A DNA stretch of 64,000 nucleotides. It comes from Myxococcus stipitatus. GTDB lineage: Bacteria > Myxococcota > Myxococcia > Myxococcales > Myxococcaceae. Below are positions 18,285 through 25,314 of this stretch, one piece after another (position 1 is the first letter of the stretch; every line of letters begins with the position of its first letter). The notes beneath the pieces are model-generated. The model had not been told where the DNA came from. It saw nothing but the letters and a program-made list of their open reading frames with translations, and did no database searches. The stretch covers positions 3,348,001 through 3,412,000 of the forward strand of contig NZ_CP147913.1 of NCBI RefSeq assembly GCF_037414475.1, in the 5' to 3' direction. The translations under genes and the position numbers were made by a program.

Positions 18285-19564
18285 GCCCTCGGCCGGGACA
18301 GGCCCAGCAGCACCAGGCCCGCCACCACCGCGATTGCCGTGGTGGCGGCCTCCCGGGCGCTCGCGCCGAACGCCACCAGCGTCAGGCCGAGCCCCAACGT
18401 GGGCACCGCCAGCAGCGCGTGCACCGGACGCAAGCCCCGCTCTCTTCGCAATGACAGCCGCGCGAGCGCCGCCGCCGTGACGCCGTACTGCATCAGCACG
18501 GCGATGCTGGAGAGCGCGAAGAGCTCCGACAGGTTGCCCAGGTTGACGAACAGCAGCACCACCATCCACGTGACGGCCAGCGCTCGCGCGGGCACGCCCC
18601 GGGCGGACATCTCCTCCAGCCCGAGCAGCGCCCTGCCTCCCGACGCCAGCGCGGACAGGTAGCGCGGCGTGGTCACCATCATCCCCACGCAGATGCCCAA
18701 CGCGGACACGCTGGTGCCGGCGGACACCACTCGCGACAGCGCCGCCCCGCCCCACACCTCCGCCGCCGCGGCCAGGGGCGCGGAGGACGTGGCCAACTCA
18801 GGCAGCGCCGCGACACACGCCCAGACCAGCCCCACGTACAGCAGCACCGCGCCCAGGAGCGACCCCACCGTGGCCAGCGGCACGCTGCGCTCCGACGAGC
18901 GCACCTGCCCGGCAATCACCGGCACGATTTCAAACCCCTGGTAGGCGAACATCACCGCCAGCCCCGCCCGCAGCCACGCGCTGTCGGCGAGCCCCGTCGT
19001 CGGAGCAACGACGGGCGCAGGCGCGCTCACCGCGGCGAACACGATGAGCAGCGCGGCCAGCGGCAAGAGCTTGAGCACCGTGAGCGCCGTCCACGTGCGC
19101 GCGGAGACCTGGATGCCCGAGGCGACGATGCCCGCGAGCACCGTGACGAGCACCGAGGCCAGCACGCGCTGCCCCACCGCGCCCTCCATCCCCAATGAGG
19201 GCGCCACCGCCTGGGTCAGCCCCACCACCACCGCGGAGGTGCTCAGGAACGCGCTGACGTAGGCCACCCATCCCACGAGGAAGGCCACGCGCTCGCCAAA
19301 GGCCGCGCGAGCAAAGACGACCGGCCCCCCGTCCGAGTCGAAGCGGCGGCCCAGCACCGCGAACGCGAGCGCCACGGGCACCAGCGCCAACCCCGTGAGC
19401 GCGAAGGCGAGCACCGCGCCCATCCCCGGCGTCCGCGCGGCCACCTCCGCTGGGGCGAAGAAGATGCCGACGCCAACGATGCCGTTGACGCCCAGGGCCA
19501 ACAGTTGGAAAGGCCCCACGGTCCGCTCCCGAGGAGCGGTGACAACCACGGTGGAAGCAGGCAC
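18281..19564 (-). CDS. APC-family amino-acid permease
   Basis: About 427 residues with 11-12 hydrophobic spans. The first helix carries the APC motif GVNGIVGVGIFFAPAEVA; VMFAYQGFEIVPV, near the middle, matches the conserved region of helix 6. The start is uncertain. GTG 19564 places the first span about 15 residues in; ATG 19675 would add 37 residues of non-membrane sequence and lies over the upstream region of the next gene. Its TAG stop (18281-18283) overlaps the TAG of the convergent glutamine synthetase by two bases. An amino-acid or amine transporter beside glutamine synthetase is a sensible pair, but the substrate is unknown. Confidence 0.85.
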   Translation of the reverse strand: MPASTVVVTAPRERTVGPFQLLALGVNGIVGVGIFFAPAEVAARTPGMGAVLAFALTGLALVPVALAFAVLGRRFDSDGGPVVFARAAFGERVAFLVGWVAYVSAFLSTSAVVVGLTQAVAPSLGMEGAVGQRVLASVLVTVLAGIVASGIQVSARTWTALTVLKLLPLAALLIVFAAVSAPAPVVAPTTGLADSAWLRAGLAVMFAYQGFEIVPVIAGQVRSSERSVPLATVGSLLGAVLLYVGLVWACVAALPELATSSAPLAAAAEVWGGAALSRVVSAGTSVSALGICVGMMVTTPRYLSALASGGRALLGLEEMSARGVPARALAVTWMVVLLFVNLGNLSELFALSSIAVLMQYGVTAAALARLSLRRERGLRPVHALLAVPTLGLGLTLVAFGASAREAATTAIAVVAGLVLLGLSRPRA

Positions 19565-19660
19565 GGGCTCCAGTATGGGACGAACCGAGTCCAGGGCCCA
19601 TGCACAATCACACCCGAGGTGTGCTCCAATCTCCCGTCGAGGCGGCACGTCGGGTGTTTG

Positions 19661-19669
19661 TCGATATGC
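19661..19669 (+). promoter_or_regulatory. TCGATATGC motif upstream of paralog 1
   Basis: The nonamer TCGATATGC occurs upstream of each of the three paralogous lipoprotein genes: 93 bases before the first start, 93 before the second (21380-21388) and 66 before the third (23005-23013). The surrounding intergenic DNA differs, so the motif is a candidate shared promoter or binding element. Confidence 0.4.
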
Positions 19670-19753
19670 CCGCATGCTCCAGACGTTTCGACGAGTTGAC
19701 TCAGCCCCCAGGCCCGGTCCCGACCTCCTGGGCCCTGTATCTCGGAGGAAGAC

Positions 19754-21331
19754 ATGCGACGGTTTGGAATGATGCTGGGGCTCCTGGGGTGCATGGGGTG
19801 CGCCAGCCTGACCCGTGGACTGGCCACCCAGTACAACCCGGAGACGGGGGAGTACGAGGTCCCCACCCACGAGGTCGTCTACCTGGTCCCCGCCGAGGAC
19901 GCGATGAGGACGGCCCGGCGCATCCTCGAGGAGGAGCGCTACGACGTCATGGAGAAGGACGGAGGACTCGAGCTGTTCTCCTCCGCCCATGAGCCGGGCC
20001 GCAACCGCCTGGGCCTGCGCAACCACGAGCGCTACTACGTCCAGGGCGTGCGGCTGGGGCCCCGGCAGACGCTCGTGCGCGTCTTCCGGCTGAGCTACAG
20101 CGAGATGGAGAACCTCATCGAGGAGGGGCCCAAGCAATTCAACGACGTCACCAGCCGCGACAGCCGCCTGGACCTCGAGGCCTACGAGCATCCCTTCGAT
20201 GCCCGTCTGGAGGCGAACAGGAGCGCGCCCTCGAGTGCGCCCTCCAACAGCCCTCCGGGCTCGCTCACCGACGCGAAGTCCATGCCCCGGCAGTACGCGA
20301 TGTCGAACCCCTTCCCCAGCGCTCCCGGGCTGGAGGGCTTCCGCGTGACGCGCGGCTACCGCGACATGGGCATCGAGCAGAAGCTCCTGGAGCGCCTGGA
20401 GATGGCGCCCGCGCTGGAGCTGGTCGGCGGCAACAACCCCGTGCCCATGCGCTCCATGATGATGGAGGGCTGGAGCGAGGTCGACGAGGCCACCGCCACC
20501 CTCGCGCCCGAGTGTGGCGCGCCCCTGGAGGGCGCCGCGTCCCTCTACTCCGCGGGAGGTGTCCTGCTCGTGGCGGACCCGCTGGGCACCCAGGAGGTCC
20601 CCACCGCGACACTCCGGATGATGTGCGAGGCCACGGCCCAGGGACTTCCCGTGACGCTCGCGCTGTCCATCCCCACCTCCGAGCAGCCGCTGCTCGAGCA
20701 CTACCTCGCCAGCGATGGTGAGTCCGCGGACGCGCAGGAGCTCCTCACGGGCAGCGCCTTCTGGCGCCGCACGTATCAAGACGGACGCAGCAGCCGCGCC
20801 ATGCTCTGGCTCGTCGAGCAGGCCCGCCGCCTGCGCGCCTCCGGCAAGGACGTGGCCATCGCCGCCATCGACGCGGACAAGGCGCAAGGCAACGAGCGCG
20901 AGGCGCAGATGGCCCAGCACCTGCTCAAGGCCCAGGCCGCGCGGCCCCAGGCCTGGACGGTGGCGCTCACCGGCAGCGTCCACGCGCGCACCACCGAGGT
21001 GAGCTGGGATGGCGACTTCGAGCCCATGGGGGCTCGCGTCGCTCGCGCCCTGCCGTCCACGAAGGCGCTCGACGTGGGCTTCCAGCGCGGCACCCAGTTC
21101 GCCTGCCGCTACAACGTCTGGGACGAGGTGGAGTGCAACGTCTTCGCCATCAGTCCCACGCTGGAGGCTCGGCAGTCCTCGAAGCAGACCGCGGGGCTGG
21201 AGCTCTTCGCCACCCAGCAGCCGCACGGCTTCCAGGGGAGGCTCTACGTCGGCGCGCTGAACGCCTCGCCGCCCGCGCTCCAGTCGCAACCGCAGGTCAC
21301 CGCGGCCAACCACGCCCCCGCGATGAAGTAG
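19754..21331 (+). CDS. Tandem paralogous lipoprotein 1 (ChaN/EreA-like C-terminal domain, inferred)
   Basis: 525 residues. The N-terminus MRRFGMMLGLLGCMGC is a lipoprotein signal (acylated Cys13 or Cys16). An N-terminal domain with YNPETGEYEVPTHEVVYLVP extends to about residue 125, then a variable Ser/Pro-rich linker. The C-terminal domain (about 215-500) has LLVADPLGTQEVP, PVTLALSIPTSEQPLLEHYL, WRRTYQDGRSS and TGSVHARTTEVSWDGDFEPM. Their order recalls ChaN/erythromycin-esterase-type domains (GxxHGTxE, then ALExP), but the His of the first motif is Leu here, so this is inference. GGAGGAAG precedes ATG 19754. First of three tandem copies; function unknown. Confidence 0.75.
   Translation: MRRFGMMLGLLGCMGCASLTRGLATQYNPETGEYEVPTHEVVYLVPAEDAMRTARRILEEERYDVMEKDGGLELFSSAHEPGRNRLGLRNHERYYVQGVRLGPRQTLVRVFRLSYSEMENLIEEGPKQFNDVTSRDSRLDLEAYEHPFDARLEANRSAPSSAPSNSPPGSLTDAKSMPRQYAMSNPFPSAPGLEGFRVTRGYRDMGIEQKLLERLEMAPALELVGGNNPVPMRSMMMEGWSEVDEATATLAPECGAPLEGAASLYSAGGVLLVADPLGTQEVPTATLRMMCEATAQGLPVTLALSIPTSEQPLLEHYLASDGESADAQELLTGSAFWRRTYQDGRSSRAMLWLVEQARRLRASGKDVAIAAIDADKAQGNEREAQMAQHLLKAQAARPQAWTVALTGSVHARTTEVSWDGDFEPMGARVARALPSTKALDVGFQRGTQFACRYNVWDEVECNVFAISPTLEARQSSKQTAGLELFATQQPHGFQGRLYVGALNASPPALQSQPQVTAANHAPAMK
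20405..21260 (+). repeat. Long direct repeat shared by paralogs 1 and 3
   Basis: The DNA encoding the C-terminal domain of paralog 1 is nearly identical to 23641-24496 in paralog 3, with stretches over 100 bases showing only one or a few changes. The equivalent part of paralog 2, which lies between them, is more diverged. Recent duplication or gene conversion between the outer copies is the likely cause. Confidence 0.75.
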
Positions 21332-21379
21332 CTCGAGTGCGGGCCCTCCCGTTCCAGCCAGCATCCGTCGAACGTGAGT

Positions 21380-21388
21380 TCGATATGC
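21380..21388 (+). promoter_or_regulatory. TCGATATGC motif upstream of paralog 2
   Basis: Second copy of the motif, 93 bases before ATG 21473, in a 141-base intergenic region between paralogs 1 and 2. Confidence 0.4.
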
Positions 21389-21472
21389 TGGCACGGACCT
21401 GGCGTTTCCGCGATGAACGCCACTCGGTCGCCCGGGGCCCGTCTCCACAGCCCAGGGCCCCCGGAGGAAGCA

Positions 21473-22906
21473 ATGCGACGGTTGGGATTGATGCTGGGGC
21501 TCTTGGGATGCATGGGGTGCTCACTGTTTTCACGTGGCCTCTCCACCCGCTACAACCCGGAGACGGGCGAGTACGAGGTCCCCACGCACGAGGTCATCTA
21601 TCTGGCGCCCGTGGAGGACGCGATGATGACCGCCCGGACCCTCTTCGCGGAGAAGCTCCGGCTCGACATGCTGGAGAGGGAGGGAGGGCTGGTGATGTAC
21701 TCCTCCTTCATTCCAGACGTCGTCCCGCCGGAGCGCTACTACATCAAGGGGGAGCGGCTGGGCCCCCGGCAGTCGCTCGTGCGCGTCTTCCGCCTGCGCT
21801 ACCGCCACCTGGCGCGCGTGGGCGCCCCGGCGTCGGAGCGGGTCAGCGAGCAGCCGCCCCTGAGCCACCTGCCCCCCATGTCGGCGGACCTCAAGAACGC
21901 CCCGGGCTTGGAGGGCTATGAGCCGGCCATCGGCTACCGCGACTTGAGCCTCGAGGAGGAGCTCCTGGCGCGCCTGGAGATGGCGCCCGCGCTGGAGCTG
22001 GTCAGCGGCAATCCTCCGGTACCCGTCCGCTCGGTGGTGATGGAGGGTGACGAGGAGGCGCGGACCGCGACCGTCGCCGCGCCCGAGTGTGGCGCGCCCA
22101 TCCAGGGCGCCGCGCCCCTGTTCTCAGCCGGAGGTGTCCTGCTCGTGGCCGACCCGCTGGGCACGAAGGAGCTCCCGGCGTCCATGATGCGGATGGTGTG
22201 CGAGGCCTCCTCCCAGGGATTGCCCGTGACGCTGGCCTTGTCCATCCCCCTCTCCGAGCAGCCGCTCCTGGAGCGCTACCTCGCTGGCTACGGCGACGCC
22301 ACGGCGGTTCAAGAGCTCCTCTCGGGCAGCGCCTTCTGGCGCCGGACGTATCAGGATGGGCGCAGCAGTGGCGCCATGCTCTGGCTCGTCGAGCAGGTGC
22401 GCCGCCTGCGCGCCTCCGGCAAGGACGTGACCATCGCCGCCATCGATGCGGACAAGGCGCAAGGCAACGAGCGCGAGAAGCAGATGGCTGAGCACCTGCT
22501 CAAGGCCCAGGCCACGCGTCCCCAGGCCTGGACCCTGGTGCTCACCGGCAGCGTCCACGCTCGCACCACGGAGGTGGACTGGAATGGTGACTTCGAGCCC
22601 ATGGGCTTGCGCGTGGCCCGTGCCCTGCCCTCCACGCGGGCGCTCGACGTGGGCTTCCAGCGCGGCTCCCAGTTCGTCTGCCGCTACAACGTCTGGGAAG
22701 AGGTGGAGTGTGATGTCTTCGGCATCAGCCCCACCCAGCAGGCGCGGCAGTCCTCGAAGCAGGCCGAAGGCGTGGAGCTCTACACCGCCCAGCAGCCCCA
22801 AGGCTTCCAGGGCCGGCTCTACCTCGGCGCGCTGACAGCCTCGACTCCGGCGCTCCAGCCGCAGCGGCACGCCCCGGCCGTCAGCCACGCGCCCGCCGCG
22901 AAGTAG
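21473..22906 (+). CDS. Tandem paralogous lipoprotein 2
   Basis: 477 residues, the shortest and most diverged of the three copies. Signal MRRLGLMLGLLGCMGC gives a lipidated Cys. The N-domain (YNPETGEYEVPTHEVIYLAP) and C-domain (LLVADPLGTKELP, TGSVHARTTEVDWNGDFEPM) follow the same plan. The linker (SERVSEQPPLSHLPPMSADL) is short and unlike that of the others. GGAGGAAG lies just before ATG 21473; the frame is open further upstream, but only this start gives a signal peptide. It has its own intergenic region with the shared motif and may be transcribed separately or with copy 1. Function unknown. Confidence 0.75.
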   Translation: MRRLGLMLGLLGCMGCSLFSRGLSTRYNPETGEYEVPTHEVIYLAPVEDAMMTARTLFAEKLRLDMLEREGGLVMYSSFIPDVVPPERYYIKGERLGPRQSLVRVFRLRYRHLARVGAPASERVSEQPPLSHLPPMSADLKNAPGLEGYEPAIGYRDLSLEEELLARLEMAPALELVSGNPPVPVRSVVMEGDEEARTATVAAPECGAPIQGAAPLFSAGGVLLVADPLGTKELPASMMRMVCEASSQGLPVTLALSIPLSEQPLLERYLAGYGDATAVQELLSGSAFWRRTYQDGRSSGAMLWLVEQVRRLRASGKDVTIAAIDADKAQGNEREKQMAEHLLKAQATRPQAWTLVLTGSVHARTTEVDWNGDFEPMGLRVARALPSTRALDVGFQRGSQFVCRYNVWEEVECDVFGISPTQQARQSSKQAEGVELYTAQQPQGFQGRLYLGALTASTPALQPQRHAPAVSHAPAAK

Positions 22907-23004
22907 CGCCCTCGCCCGTTCGCCCATGCCACCGAGCCCCTGTGCGCTCGGTGGTGGCGGACCTGCGCAAGAGTCCCCGCGCGCTCAATCCCTTATCAAC
23001 TCCG

Positions 23005-23013
23005 TCGATATGC
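23005..23013 (+). promoter_or_regulatory. TCGATATGC motif upstream of paralog 3
   Basis: Third copy of the motif, 66 bases before ATG 23071, in the 164-base gap after paralog 2. Confidence 0.4.
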
Positions 23014-23070
23014 CCCGCTTTTATCCGGCGTTTGAGGGGTGGATGCAACGCTGGGACTCGAGGAGGCGTG

Positions 23071-24561
23071 ATGCGACGGATTGGAATGATGTTGGGGCTC
23101 GTCGGCTGCGTGGGATGCGCGAACCTCACACGCGGTCTCAATGCCCAGTACAACCCAGACACGGGTGAATACGAGACGCCCCAACAGGAGACTGTCTATC
23201 TCGTCCCCGCCGAGGACGCGATGATGACGGCCCGGCGCATCCTGGAGAAGCAGCGCCTCGGTGTGCTCGAGGAGGAGGGGGGATTGGAGATGTACTCCTC
23301 CCTTCGTGACCCTGGCCATGCCGCCGTGGGCCTTCGCACCCAGGAGCGCTATTACATCAAGGCGGAGCGGCTCGGCCCCCGGCAGTCGCTCGTCCGCATC
23401 TTCCGCCTGAACTACGTCGAGGCGAACAGTCTCATCGAGAAGGGGCTCCTGAACACGCCCCTCAGAATGGGGAGATGGAACGGCGCGAGCAGGCTGGACG
23501 CGGGAGTGCCAGGCGGGCACGTCGAGTCTCCCTTCATCAGAACGAGCATGGACGGCGCCCCGATGGATGAGAGCTTCCGACTGGCGAACGGCTACCGTGA
23601 CATGGTCTTCGAGAAGTCGCTTCGAGAGCACCTGGAGGTGGCGCCCGCGCTGGAGCTGGTCGGCGGCAACACCCCCGTGCCCATGCGCTCCATGATGATG
23701 GAGGGATGGGGCGAGGCGGACGAGGCCACGGCCACCCTCGCGCCCGAGTGCGGCACACCGCTGGAGGGCGCCGCGTCCCTCTACTCCGCGGGAGGAGTCC
23801 TCCTCGTTGCCGACCCACTGGGCACCCAGGAGGTCCCCACCGCGGCGCTCCGGATGATGTGCGAGGCCACGGCCCAGGGACTTCCCGTGACGCTCGCGCT
23901 GTCCATCCCCGCCTCCGAGCAGCCGCTGCTCGAGCGCTACGTCGCCAGCGATGGTGAGTCAGCGGACGCGCAGGAGTTCCTCACGGGCAGCGCCTTCTGG
24001 CGCCGCACGTATCAAGACGGACGCAGCAGCCGCGCCATGCTCTGGCTCGTCGAGCAGGCCCGCCGCCTGCGCGCCTCCGGCAAGGACGTGGCCATCGCCG
24101 CCATCGACGTGGACAAGGCACAAGGCAACGAGCGCGAGGCGCAGATGGCCCAGCACCTGCTCAAGGCCCAGGCCGCGCGGCCCCAGGCCTGGACGGTGGC
24201 GCTCACCGGCAGCACCCACGCCCGTACCACCGATGTGAGCTGGGATGGAGACTTCGAACCCATGGGGGCTCGCGTCGCTCGCGCCCTGCCGTCCACACGG
24301 GCGCTCGATGTCGGCTTCCAGCGCGGCTCGCAGTTCGTCTGCCGCTACAACGTCTGGGAGGAAGTGGAGTGCAACGTCTTCGCCATCAGCCCCACCCAGG
24401 AGGCACGGCAGTCCTCGAAGCAGGCCGCGGGCTTGAAGCTCTTCGCCACCCAGCAGCCGCATGGCTTCCACGGCCGGCTCTACCTCGGGGCGCTGAATGC
24501 CTCACCTCCCGCGCTCCAGGCACAAAGGCAGGTCACCGCCGCGAACTTCCCCTCGAAGTAG
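23071..24561 (+). CDS. Tandem paralogous lipoprotein 3
   Basis: 496 residues with signal MRRIGMMLGLVGCVGC. The N-domain is YNPDTGEYETPQQETVYLVP and the linker is unique (about residues 125-175, with GRWNGASRLDAGVPGGHVES). The C-domain is almost the same as that of copy 1 (LLVADPLGTQEVP, WRRTYQDGRSSRAMLWL, TGSTHARTTDVSWDGDFEPM). AGGAGG precedes the start; GTG 23068 is a possible start one codon earlier. The near-identity to copy 1 but not to the adjacent copy 2 points to conversion or stepwise duplication. Function unknown; likely envelope-located. Confidence 0.75.
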   Translation: MRRIGMMLGLVGCVGCANLTRGLNAQYNPDTGEYETPQQETVYLVPAEDAMMTARRILEKQRLGVLEEEGGLEMYSSLRDPGHAAVGLRTQERYYIKAERLGPRQSLVRIFRLNYVEANSLIEKGLLNTPLRMGRWNGASRLDAGVPGGHVESPFIRTSMDGAPMDESFRLANGYRDMVFEKSLREHLEVAPALELVGGNTPVPMRSMMMEGWGEADEATATLAPECGTPLEGAASLYSAGGVLLVADPLGTQEVPTAALRMMCEATAQGLPVTLALSIPASEQPLLERYVASDGESADAQEFLTGSAFWRRTYQDGRSSRAMLWLVEQARRLRASGKDVAIAAIDVDKAQGNEREAQMAQHLLKAQAARPQAWTVALTGSTHARTTDVSWDGDFEPMGARVARALPSTRALDVGFQRGSQFVCRYNVWEEVECNVFAISPTQEARQSSKQAAGLKLFATQQPHGFHGRLYLGALNASPPALQAQRQVTAANFPSK

Positions 24562-24819
24562 TCCCTCGGTCGGACAGCGTTCGTCGTGGACTGGGGCGCG
24601 CTTGCCGTCCCCCGGCAACTCCCGCCGGTGATGGCAAGACTTGCCGCCCCGTCCTCACCCCTTTCCGGCAACACTTGCAGGACACGCGGCCCGAGTCCCT
24701 CCAGGGCCGGGCCGCGTGAGTGCTGGCATCGCGGTTGCTCTTCCCGTGCATCGGCGCGCCTCTGGAGCTTGCGCATGACGCGACAGCTCCTGGGGACACG
24801 CTGGACAAGGAAGACACCC
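24562..24819 (+). promoter_or_regulatory. Intergenic region with GGCAA-type palindromes
   Basis: The 258-base gap before a small exported-protein gene contains the perfect palindrome GGCAAG-A-CTTGCC (24633-24645) and the near copy GGCAACACTTGC (24667-24678). A third copy, GGCAA-CTC-TTGCC (31973-31985), lies upstream of the lipoprotein gene at 32121. These may be operator sites. GG-to-GC spacing is 8, so they do not fit a sigma-54 promoter. Confidence 0.35.
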
Positions 24820-25314
24820 ATGACGAAGCACACGCTCCTGAAGCACTCGGTGGCGGCTCTCGCGCTGCTCGGCGCCCTGCCCGCGGCGGCCGGCCCCGCG
24901 ACCTACGCTGGCGCGCTCTGCACCTCCGTGTCGGGCTCCGGCACTCCCGCCATCTACCGCAGCGGCCGACTCGTCAACACCACGGGCTCCACGCTCGAGG
25001 TCGTCTGCCCGGTGCAGCGCAACATCAACCTCACCAACCTCAATGAGGATGTGTCGGTCCTCGTCACCGTGGTCGACGCGAGCCTGGACAAGGATGTCCG
25101 CTGCACCGCGACGGTGAGCGAGCCTGACGGCACCGTCGTCCTCGCGGGCTCCGGACAGACCAGCGGCGCCGACGTGAACAACGCCAAGAGCATCTCCATC
25201 GACCTGGCGCCCGCGCTCGCGACCTTCTTCGGCTACATCACGGTGCGCTGCGAGATTCCCGAGACCTACGCGGGCGCCAACTCGGTGCTCGCCAGCTTCT
25301 ACATCTCGGAGTAA
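24820..25314 (+). CDS. Small exported hypothetical protein
   Basis: 164 residues with a clear Sec signal peptide (about 1-24, KHSVAALALLGALPAAAG). The mature part is a probable beta-sandwich with paired Cys residues (ALCTSVSG, VVCPVQRN, VRCTATVS, VRCEIPET), suggesting disulfides outside the cytoplasm. I do not recognise a family. ATG 24820 is chosen for the signal peptide; the frame is open upstream without a signal. The next gene starts five bases after the stop, so the two are probably cotranscribed. Confidence 0.7.
   Translation: MTKHTLLKHSVAALALLGALPAAAGPATYAGALCTSVSGSGTPAIYRSGRLVNTTGSTLEVVCPVQRNINLTNLNEDVSVLVTVVDASLDKDVRCTATVSEPDGTVVLAGSGQTSGADVNNAKSISIDLAPALATFFGYITVRCEIPETYAGANSVLASFYISE

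Follow-up and report, generated by a model that had tools for sequence, protein, structure and literature searches.

A stretch of 64,000 nucleotides from Myxococcus stipitatus (NZ_CP147913.1, positions 3,348,001 to 3,412,000 of the forward strand; referred to below as the window, with positions counted from its first letter) carries three tandem lipoprotein genes, and the question raised by this locus is what envelope proteins may do whose C-terminal domains resemble hydrolases in fold and differ from them at three catalytic positions. The answer judged moderately probable, from sequences and predicted models, is that the trio are lipid-anchored envelope pseudoenzymes, which would derive from hydrolases of the TIKI/EreA/ChaN type and would be co-expressed with intact relatives through an extracytoplasmic function (ECF) sigma factor. 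The window belongs to a 10.3-Mb genome in one contig (labelled G000), and the three genes are as follows.

19754..21331, plus strand: copy 1, a predicted lipoprotein of 525 amino acids with an apparently helix-grip-type N-domain containing a variable loop and a degenerate TIKI/EreA/ChaN C-domain
21473..22906, plus strand: copy 2, a paralogue of 477 amino acids counted from the ATG (the ORF lister gave an upstream GTG at 21374)
23071..24561, plus strand: copy 3, a paralogue of 496 amino acids counted from the ATG (the ORF lister gave a GTG at 22942), its C-domain homogenised with that of copy 1

Three tandem lipoprotein paralogues had been proposed in the original prediction, and three plus-strand open reading frames of common architecture were found (a start of the type MRR...GC(M/V)GC, then an N-domain, followed by a variable segment and lastly the C-domain). 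The lipoprotein start that it had also proposed was recognised by eye in 3/3 copies as the lipobox-like MRR..MLGL(L/V)GC(M/V)GC, and C16 of the MRR..GLLGCMGC start was kept in 8/8 aligned homologues, the signal likewise being judged by eye. According to the available part of PMC3222651, +2 Lys is present in 8/12 inner-membrane lipoproteins of M. xanthus and FibA is not retained by +2 Lys alone. Inspected by eye, the trio sequences lack +2 Lys and argue for lipidation only, and not for the surface position named in the original prediction.

Fold and catalytic positions of the C-domain

The C-domains and the positions matching superfamily catalytic residues were assigned as follows.

20504..21280, plus strand: copy 1 C-domain, degenerate TIKI/EreA/ChaN fold, residues 251-509
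22079..22855, plus strand: copy 2 C-domain, residues 203-461
23740..24516, plus strand: copy 3 C-domain, residues 224-482
20573..20584, plus strand: A274-D275-P276-L277 of copy 1, replacing the G-E-x-H motif
20666..20668, plus strand: S305 of copy 1, replacing the second catalytic Glu
20981..20983, plus strand: H410 of copy 1 (in GSVHAR), the second His, retained

The predicted model of the copy 1 C-domain (pLDDT 61.8, pTM 0.68) was compared with the PDB by VIA-align, and ranks 1-12 were all taken by the TIKI/EreA/ChaN superfamily (Z 11.7-9.6), including EreC (11.7), 6a7h (11.6), PMT, BcR135 and HopBA1 (10.8 each), ChaN (2g5g, 10.5) and RRSP (5w6l, 9.6); the first match from elsewhere was FtsY at Z 8.9. 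The entry 6a7h is titled 'Bacterial protein toxins' and has residue numbers as in RRSP. With the full-length model, the Foldseek order was HopBA1, RRSP and the BamC N-domain, with PMT and EreC lower and DnaB-type helicases between. PF04187 (ChaN/Tiki) was over its cut-off for intact paralogues of the same genome in a whole-frame search (30.9 and 30.3 versus 27.7 bits) and just under it for the same paralogues by hmmscan (26.3 and 25.7 bits, E about 1e-5), while for the trio itself copy 2 alone was matched, at E 0.11 and under the cut-off. The trio C-domains share 33-36% identity with that of one intact paralogue (L012). For the three trio copies searched directly, Pfam returned nothing above cut-off and NCBIfam nothing at all, no NCBIfam match was obtained for the paralogues L012, L009 and L010, and no match was obtained among PDB sequences for copy 1, the only copy searched. 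On the model, and from the intact paralogues matching PF04187, the C-domain is of the EreA/ChaN/TIKI fold, so that the proposed ChaN/EreA-type domain holds; the comparison by VIA-align placed the superfamily ahead of anything else.

The catalytic set of the superfamily is 2His/2Glu, and in RRSP the change of each of these residues to Leu abolished cleavage, as given in the available part of PMC6254334. The motif order predicted for the trio was present in all copies, namely PLGTQE (PLGTKE in copy 2), then ALSIP..EQ, then TGSxHAR. The substitution of Leu for His in the first motif had been correctly noted but is one of three changes, Glu being also replaced by Asp in the same motif and by Ser in the second; the E-x-H of motif 1 is absent and A-D-P-L stands in all three copies. 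The last His, GxxHxR, FW...DGR and four Cys are retained. The trio shares with the superfamily (PF04187, PF05139) the fold, the order of the three motifs and the GxxHxR motif of the second His, and the intact paralogues keep the full 2His/2Glu set; unlike the superfamily, the trio has Asp for Glu, Leu for His and Ser for Glu, a predicted lipid anchor, an apparently helix-grip-type N-domain and four conserved Cys. PMT is comparable in having the TIKI fold without the 2His/2Glu motif (PMC6254334, available part). It is a toxin, however, whereas the trio genes encode predicted lipoproteins and share both their genome and the upstream element described below with intact paralogues.

Further paralogues in the window genome carry the complete set (L012 and L013: GELH / GLELP / GNIH) or an intermediate one (L009 and L010: GEQL / Ser / GNxH), beside the ADPL / Ser / GSxH of the trio. 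A distant paralogue (L015:1384-3102, at about 4.74 Mb of G000) has GEVS / Leu / no His and a long C-terminal extension with a weak DUF6624 match; the second Glu and both His are missing from it, and the motif 1 Glu and the Cys pattern are kept.

Among 164 unique C-domains, 28 were shorter than 225 residues and were omitted, and the remaining 136 were classified as 60 intact, 60 ADPL, 11 GEQL-like, 2 GExQ with Glu and 3 partial. The intact class was defined by E/H/E, the ADPL class by its first two motif letters and the GEQL class by the absence of His from motif 1 and of Glu from motif 2, which leaves only the other positions as free counts. After removal of one sequence (L091, ADKP, on a long branch) from the ADPL class, the 59 remaining domains had Asp in 59, Leu in 57 and Met in 2, Ser in 59 and His in 59, and the Arg of GxxHxR was kept in 59/59. 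The second position of the GEQL group (n=11) was Ser in 7, Pro in 3 and Leu in 1.

For the tree, 100 of the 136 C-domains were used (thinned at 93% identity) and the motif columns were removed. A branch supported at 99/95 separated a degenerate side of 58 rows (45 ADPL, 10 GEQL, 2 GExQ and 1 partial), on which GExQ/Glu branched first, followed by a GEQL/Ser group (93/94) and by a GEQL group carrying either Ser or Pro (100/99); the 45 ADPL/Ser rows formed a single group (100/100). Because L015 was placed elsewhere in the tree, with a long branch, the GEQL label does not represent one event. The order fits a stepwise loss of the catalytic set, the root being a midpoint root and the direction of loss presupposing an ancestral complete set, as in the superfamily. 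Within one genome, active sites that are complete, half-lost or replaced occur side by side, in a fold known from hydrolases, haem binders and toxins.

Across seven pairs of orthologues the C-domain dN/dS was 0.19-0.51. A rival view, that these are decaying redundant copies which chance and conversion have preserved, would agree with the loss of three catalytic residues and with the 1 to 5 copies per locus (23 loci); decay is nevertheless highly improbable, because dN/dS is well under 1 between orthologues, the frames are open in nearly all matches listed (2 with an internal stop) and the replacement residues are fixed. Purifying selection together with fixed replacements points to rebuilt pseudoenzymes, that is, to replacement.

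The same numbers also bear on a remade active site, in which Asp275, Ser305 and His410, standing at the Glu, Glu and His positions of the superfamily, would support serine/acid/His hydrolysis in place of the 2His/2Glu chemistry. Such a site would accord with the invariance of all three residues in trio-type domains (59/59 each), with the low dN/dS and with the Glu-His pair assigned as essential in RRSP, which is matched by motif order to Ser305/His410 (PMC6254334, available part). It is nonetheless quite improbable: Ser is present in only 7/11 of the GEQL group, no nucleophile-elbow sequence was seen by eye at ALSIP, and the model around His410 is too weak for geometry. A ChaN-like cofactor- or metal-binding domain, whose pocket would keep His410 and its neighbours for haem or metal and would not act as a hydrolase, is likewise unlikely, if somewhat less so. 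A related Pfam family is named Cofac_haem_bdg, ChaN 2g5g aligns at the Z of 10.5 given above, and an MbnP-family copper-binding gene lies downstream of the same element as the trio (a weak point, from one gene), but three pocket residues are replaced and the one neighbour gene classified is a glutamine synthetase.

Two contigs of genome G042, which has 11 family matches, each contain a single ORF with two TIKI-type C-domains (L098 on C6 and L099 on C2), one of each pair being GExQ/Glu and the other GEQL- or GQQA-type with Pro.

Segment identities and the N-domain loop

The identity between copies is uneven along the genes. Copies 1 and 3 share 76.0% of nucleotides in the N part, 48.1% in the variable segment (across 135 alignable columns of 216) and 92.9% in the C-domain, within which a core (gene nucleotides 880-1230) reaches 97.4% and the longest identical run is 132 nucleotides; at third positions, a fraction of 0.67 is identical in the N part and of 0.87 in the C-domain. 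The corresponding values for copies 1 and 2 are 77.7%, 54.4% (90/216 columns) and 83.0%. The nearly identical C-domains of copies 1 and 3 with a divergent middle, as had been described, are thus real by segment comparison, and an even identity over the full length is ruled out by 76.0% against 92.9%. Paralogue dN/dS above 1 in the variable segment (1.33-1.65) rests on poor alignment and was set aside.

In the DNA tree of the N part, copy 1 of the window was grouped with the first copies of three other genomes (100/99), away from copy 3, whereas in the tree of the C-domain copies 1 and 3 of the window paired (100/99); copies 1 and 4 of G102 likewise paired in the C-domain tree (99/98). These discordant trees are most simply read as at least two gene conversions affecting the C-domain. 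The segment identities and the two trees confirm what the original prediction had put forward, namely that the genes were duplicated, underwent conversion and diversified in their middle segment. Matching loci held 5, 3 and 3 copies in those three other genomes and 1 or 2 copies elsewhere (23 loci in all).

The N-domain of copy 1 was divided as follows.

19823..20107, plus strand: N-domain up to the loop, residues about 24-118, of apparent helix-grip type, limits by eye
20108..20335, plus strand: hypervariable loop, residues about 119-194, limits by eye
20336..20401, plus strand: strand and helix closing the N-domain (residues about 195-216), from the model and structural alignment

The hypervariable loop had block pLDDT values of 22-36 (residues 121-190). 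Beyond it, a strand (196-203) and a helix (205-215) were modelled that align as part of the N-domain, and since the N-domain alignments reach about residue 216, past the variable segment, the 'linker' described earlier does differ between copies but is best read as a loop within the N-domain and not simply as an inter-domain segment. The N-domain was matched by VIA-align to KA1 domains (Z up to 7.6) and to BamC (Z 7.1 and 6.5), and by Foldseek to BamC 2laf (E 0.0047) and 2yh6_A (E 0.0056); BamC being tied with KA1, the matches suggest only a fold type, the helix-grip. The N-domain of the trio resembles that of BamC in its place at the N-terminus of a lipoprotein, and differs in its interruption by a variable loop of roughly 40-80 residues. 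No match to Pfam BamC was obtained for any of the three copies.

The upstream element and a putative ECF regulon

A two-part element precedes each gene of the trio.

19662..19687, plus strand: CGATAT-N16-CGTT, 92 bp before the ATG of copy 1
21381..21406, plus strand: CGATAT-N16-CGTT, 92 bp before the ATG of copy 2
23006..23032, plus strand: CGATAT-N17-CGTT, 65 bp before the ATG of copy 3

With spacings of 14-17 allowed, the window yielded no match beyond these three (shuffle mean 0.05), and a consensus scan of 19500-24900 gave no sigma-70 promoter or terminator. Upstream regions of 140 bp were then scanned for 121 family genes, the gene starts being set by a lipobox heuristic in the script, and the element was found in 80 (50-shuffle mean 0.04; reverse strand 0); the family genes are related, so these matches are not independent events. 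By class, the element was carried by 33/57 ADPL, 45/56 intact, 2/7 GEQL and 0/1 other genes, with a spacing of 16 in 54 and of 17 in 26, and the spacers differ among family genes while both halves stay. In the window genome the exact element was present at five family genes (the trio, L012 and L009); L013 had one mismatch, L010 the first half only and L015 neither half.

Over the whole window genome 20 matches were seen against about 4 expected by chance, the expectation (two spacings) being taken from the window shuffles of 0.05 per 64 kb for four spacings. The pattern read backwards, a weak control, gave 0-2 per genome versus 7-31. Other matches in G000 lie before an ECF sigma gene and before genes for predicted lipoproteins or exported proteins, including MbnP and a DUF1028 protein; downstream of several of the 20, no convincing gene was seen. 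In the case of MbnP, the gene for this copper-binding family protein (L157:685-1539) lies downstream of CGATAT-N16/17-CGTT. A second recurring match, CGATATTCTTCGG...CGTT, was seen in several genomes among the matches listed, with a site in G000 (G000:C1:4501491-4501517, minus strand) that has no obvious downstream gene there.

G000:C1:2351195-2351836: ECF sigma gene, TIGR02937 match

The sigma gene was matched by TIGR02937 over residues 45-208 (54.2 versus 42.9 bits) and, in Pfam, by sigma region 4 only; it overlaps a downstream zf-HC2 anti-sigma-like gene (23.1 versus 22.2 bits). Three adjacent genes at L163:5196-7553 encode the ECF sigma, the zf-HC2 anti-sigma-like protein and an exported-looking protein that has no family in Pfam. 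The element stood before the sigma gene in 30/30 fetched loci (27 from the genus of the window); in 27 of the 29 loci that the script scored it lies 85-88 bp away, and in the remaining three it is likewise close upstream. In ECF promoters the -35 is typically AAC and the -10 CGT, and autoregulation is an ECF hallmark (PMC8103513, available part). The arrangement found here resembles autoregulated ECF/zinc-finger anti-sigma pairs in its overlapping zf-HC2 gene and in an element before both the operon and the putative targets; it is unlike the usual pairs in its upstream half, CGATAT and not AAC, and in putative targets that include a pseudoenzyme family.

Of the 145 genomes of the order, the lipoprotein family was present in 68 (E 0.001) and the sigma factor in 55 (E 1e-60, a limit chosen by the analyst); all 55 sigma-positive genomes were also family-positive and 77 had neither (Fisher p 7e-28, which ignores kinship). 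As 10 candidates per genome were scored in the family search and 21 in the sigma search, and these were only part of the candidates, absences are not proof. Within one genus (g8), G081-G083 had both, G078-G080 neither and G077 a weak family match only (E 2e-4). Three of the 13 genomes with the family only (G060, G062 and G067) are assemblies of 930-1240 contigs from a genus otherwise having both family and sigma; each is nevertheless 99-100% complete, and the sigma factor is present in G064 despite its 1490 contigs, which makes fragmentation a weak excuse.

Several results weigh against the favoured reading. Either C13 or C16 may be the lipidated Cys. The models are moderate, the full-length one having a pLDDT of 50.8 and residues 159-171 and 185-259 of the C-domain model lying below 50; Foldseek gave no match at E <=0.001 for the full-length or the C-domain model, and RecA/DnaB-type ATPases were mixed into its top matches. 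The exact element is missing from 41/121 family genes, including 5/7 GEQL genes (some of those lacking it are later copies within an array), and the family occurs without a sigma match at E 1e-60 in 13/68 genomes. Finally, the downstream half of the element is CGTT as expected, but the upstream half is CGATAT and not the AAC hallmark of ECF promoters.

This last point might suggest that the element is recognised by another regulator or sigma factor, the sigma operon being one more target, in genomes that are rich in sigma factors (means 55-65 per genome in the available part of PMC7694542). A small chance is given to this explanation, which is doubted in view of the spacing of 16/17 in 80/80 genes where 14-17 was allowed, the ECF-like CGT in the downstream half, the position of the element before the sigma gene in every fetched locus, as expected for an autoregulated ECF factor, and the presence of the family in every sigma-positive genome.

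Under the pseudoenzyme reading, the intact and degenerate members and the sigma operon appear to be tied by the common two-part element, which would serve a regulon. An envelope signal would free the ECF sigma factor from its zinc-finger anti-sigma partner, and the freed sigma factor would drive joint transcription of its own operon and of the genes for both the intact and the pseudo-TIKI lipoproteins. A pseudo-TIKI domain could bind a ligand of the kind that the intact forms recognise, or else the intact paralogue, and leave it uncleaved, and might act as a substrate sink, a protector or an allosteric partner, so that the trio would presumably function as ligand- or partner-binding pseudo-hydrolases of an envelope regulon. 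It is proposed that conversion maintains a uniform C-domain on account of a single conserved target that this domain would recognise; the loop of the N-domain is the part that differs between copies. An extended version, which remains speculative and is considered improbable, holds that a dedicated ECF regulon has a large TIKI-lipoprotein output, in which one hydrolase lineage was rebuilt, one residue at a time, into an Asp/Ser/His pocket (for new chemistry or for capture of the ligand cleaved by the intact paralogues), with a C-domain made uniform by conversion and a recognition repertoire in the N-loop. A nameless lipoprotein family may become a testable system, linked by sequence to one element and one sigma factor, and the trio may also serve as a handle on the ECF sigma/anti-sigma pair.

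Distribution and literature

No paper on the trio-type lipoprotein family was found among the top entries of searches in the open-licence literature, which also gave nothing joining Myxococcus xanthus, ECF sigma factor and CGATAT and no functional description of the predicted ECF pair. The available part of PMC3222651 mentions none of erythromycin, TraB, NlpB, BamC and paralog, and contains 'chan' inside other words only. A tblastn search of the plasmid collection with the intact-type C-domain gave no match at E up to 0.001.

Similar domains may also occur in gammaproteobacteria. A search of the phylum at a completeness of at least 80% gave matches in 69/179 genomes, 66 of them in the taxonomic family of the window, and a protein-query scan of genome contigs gave 5 loci, in close relatives only. 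A trio-type gene was also present in BNCN01000015.1 (L005), a record titled Comamonas sp. KCTC 72670, whose name looks wrong.

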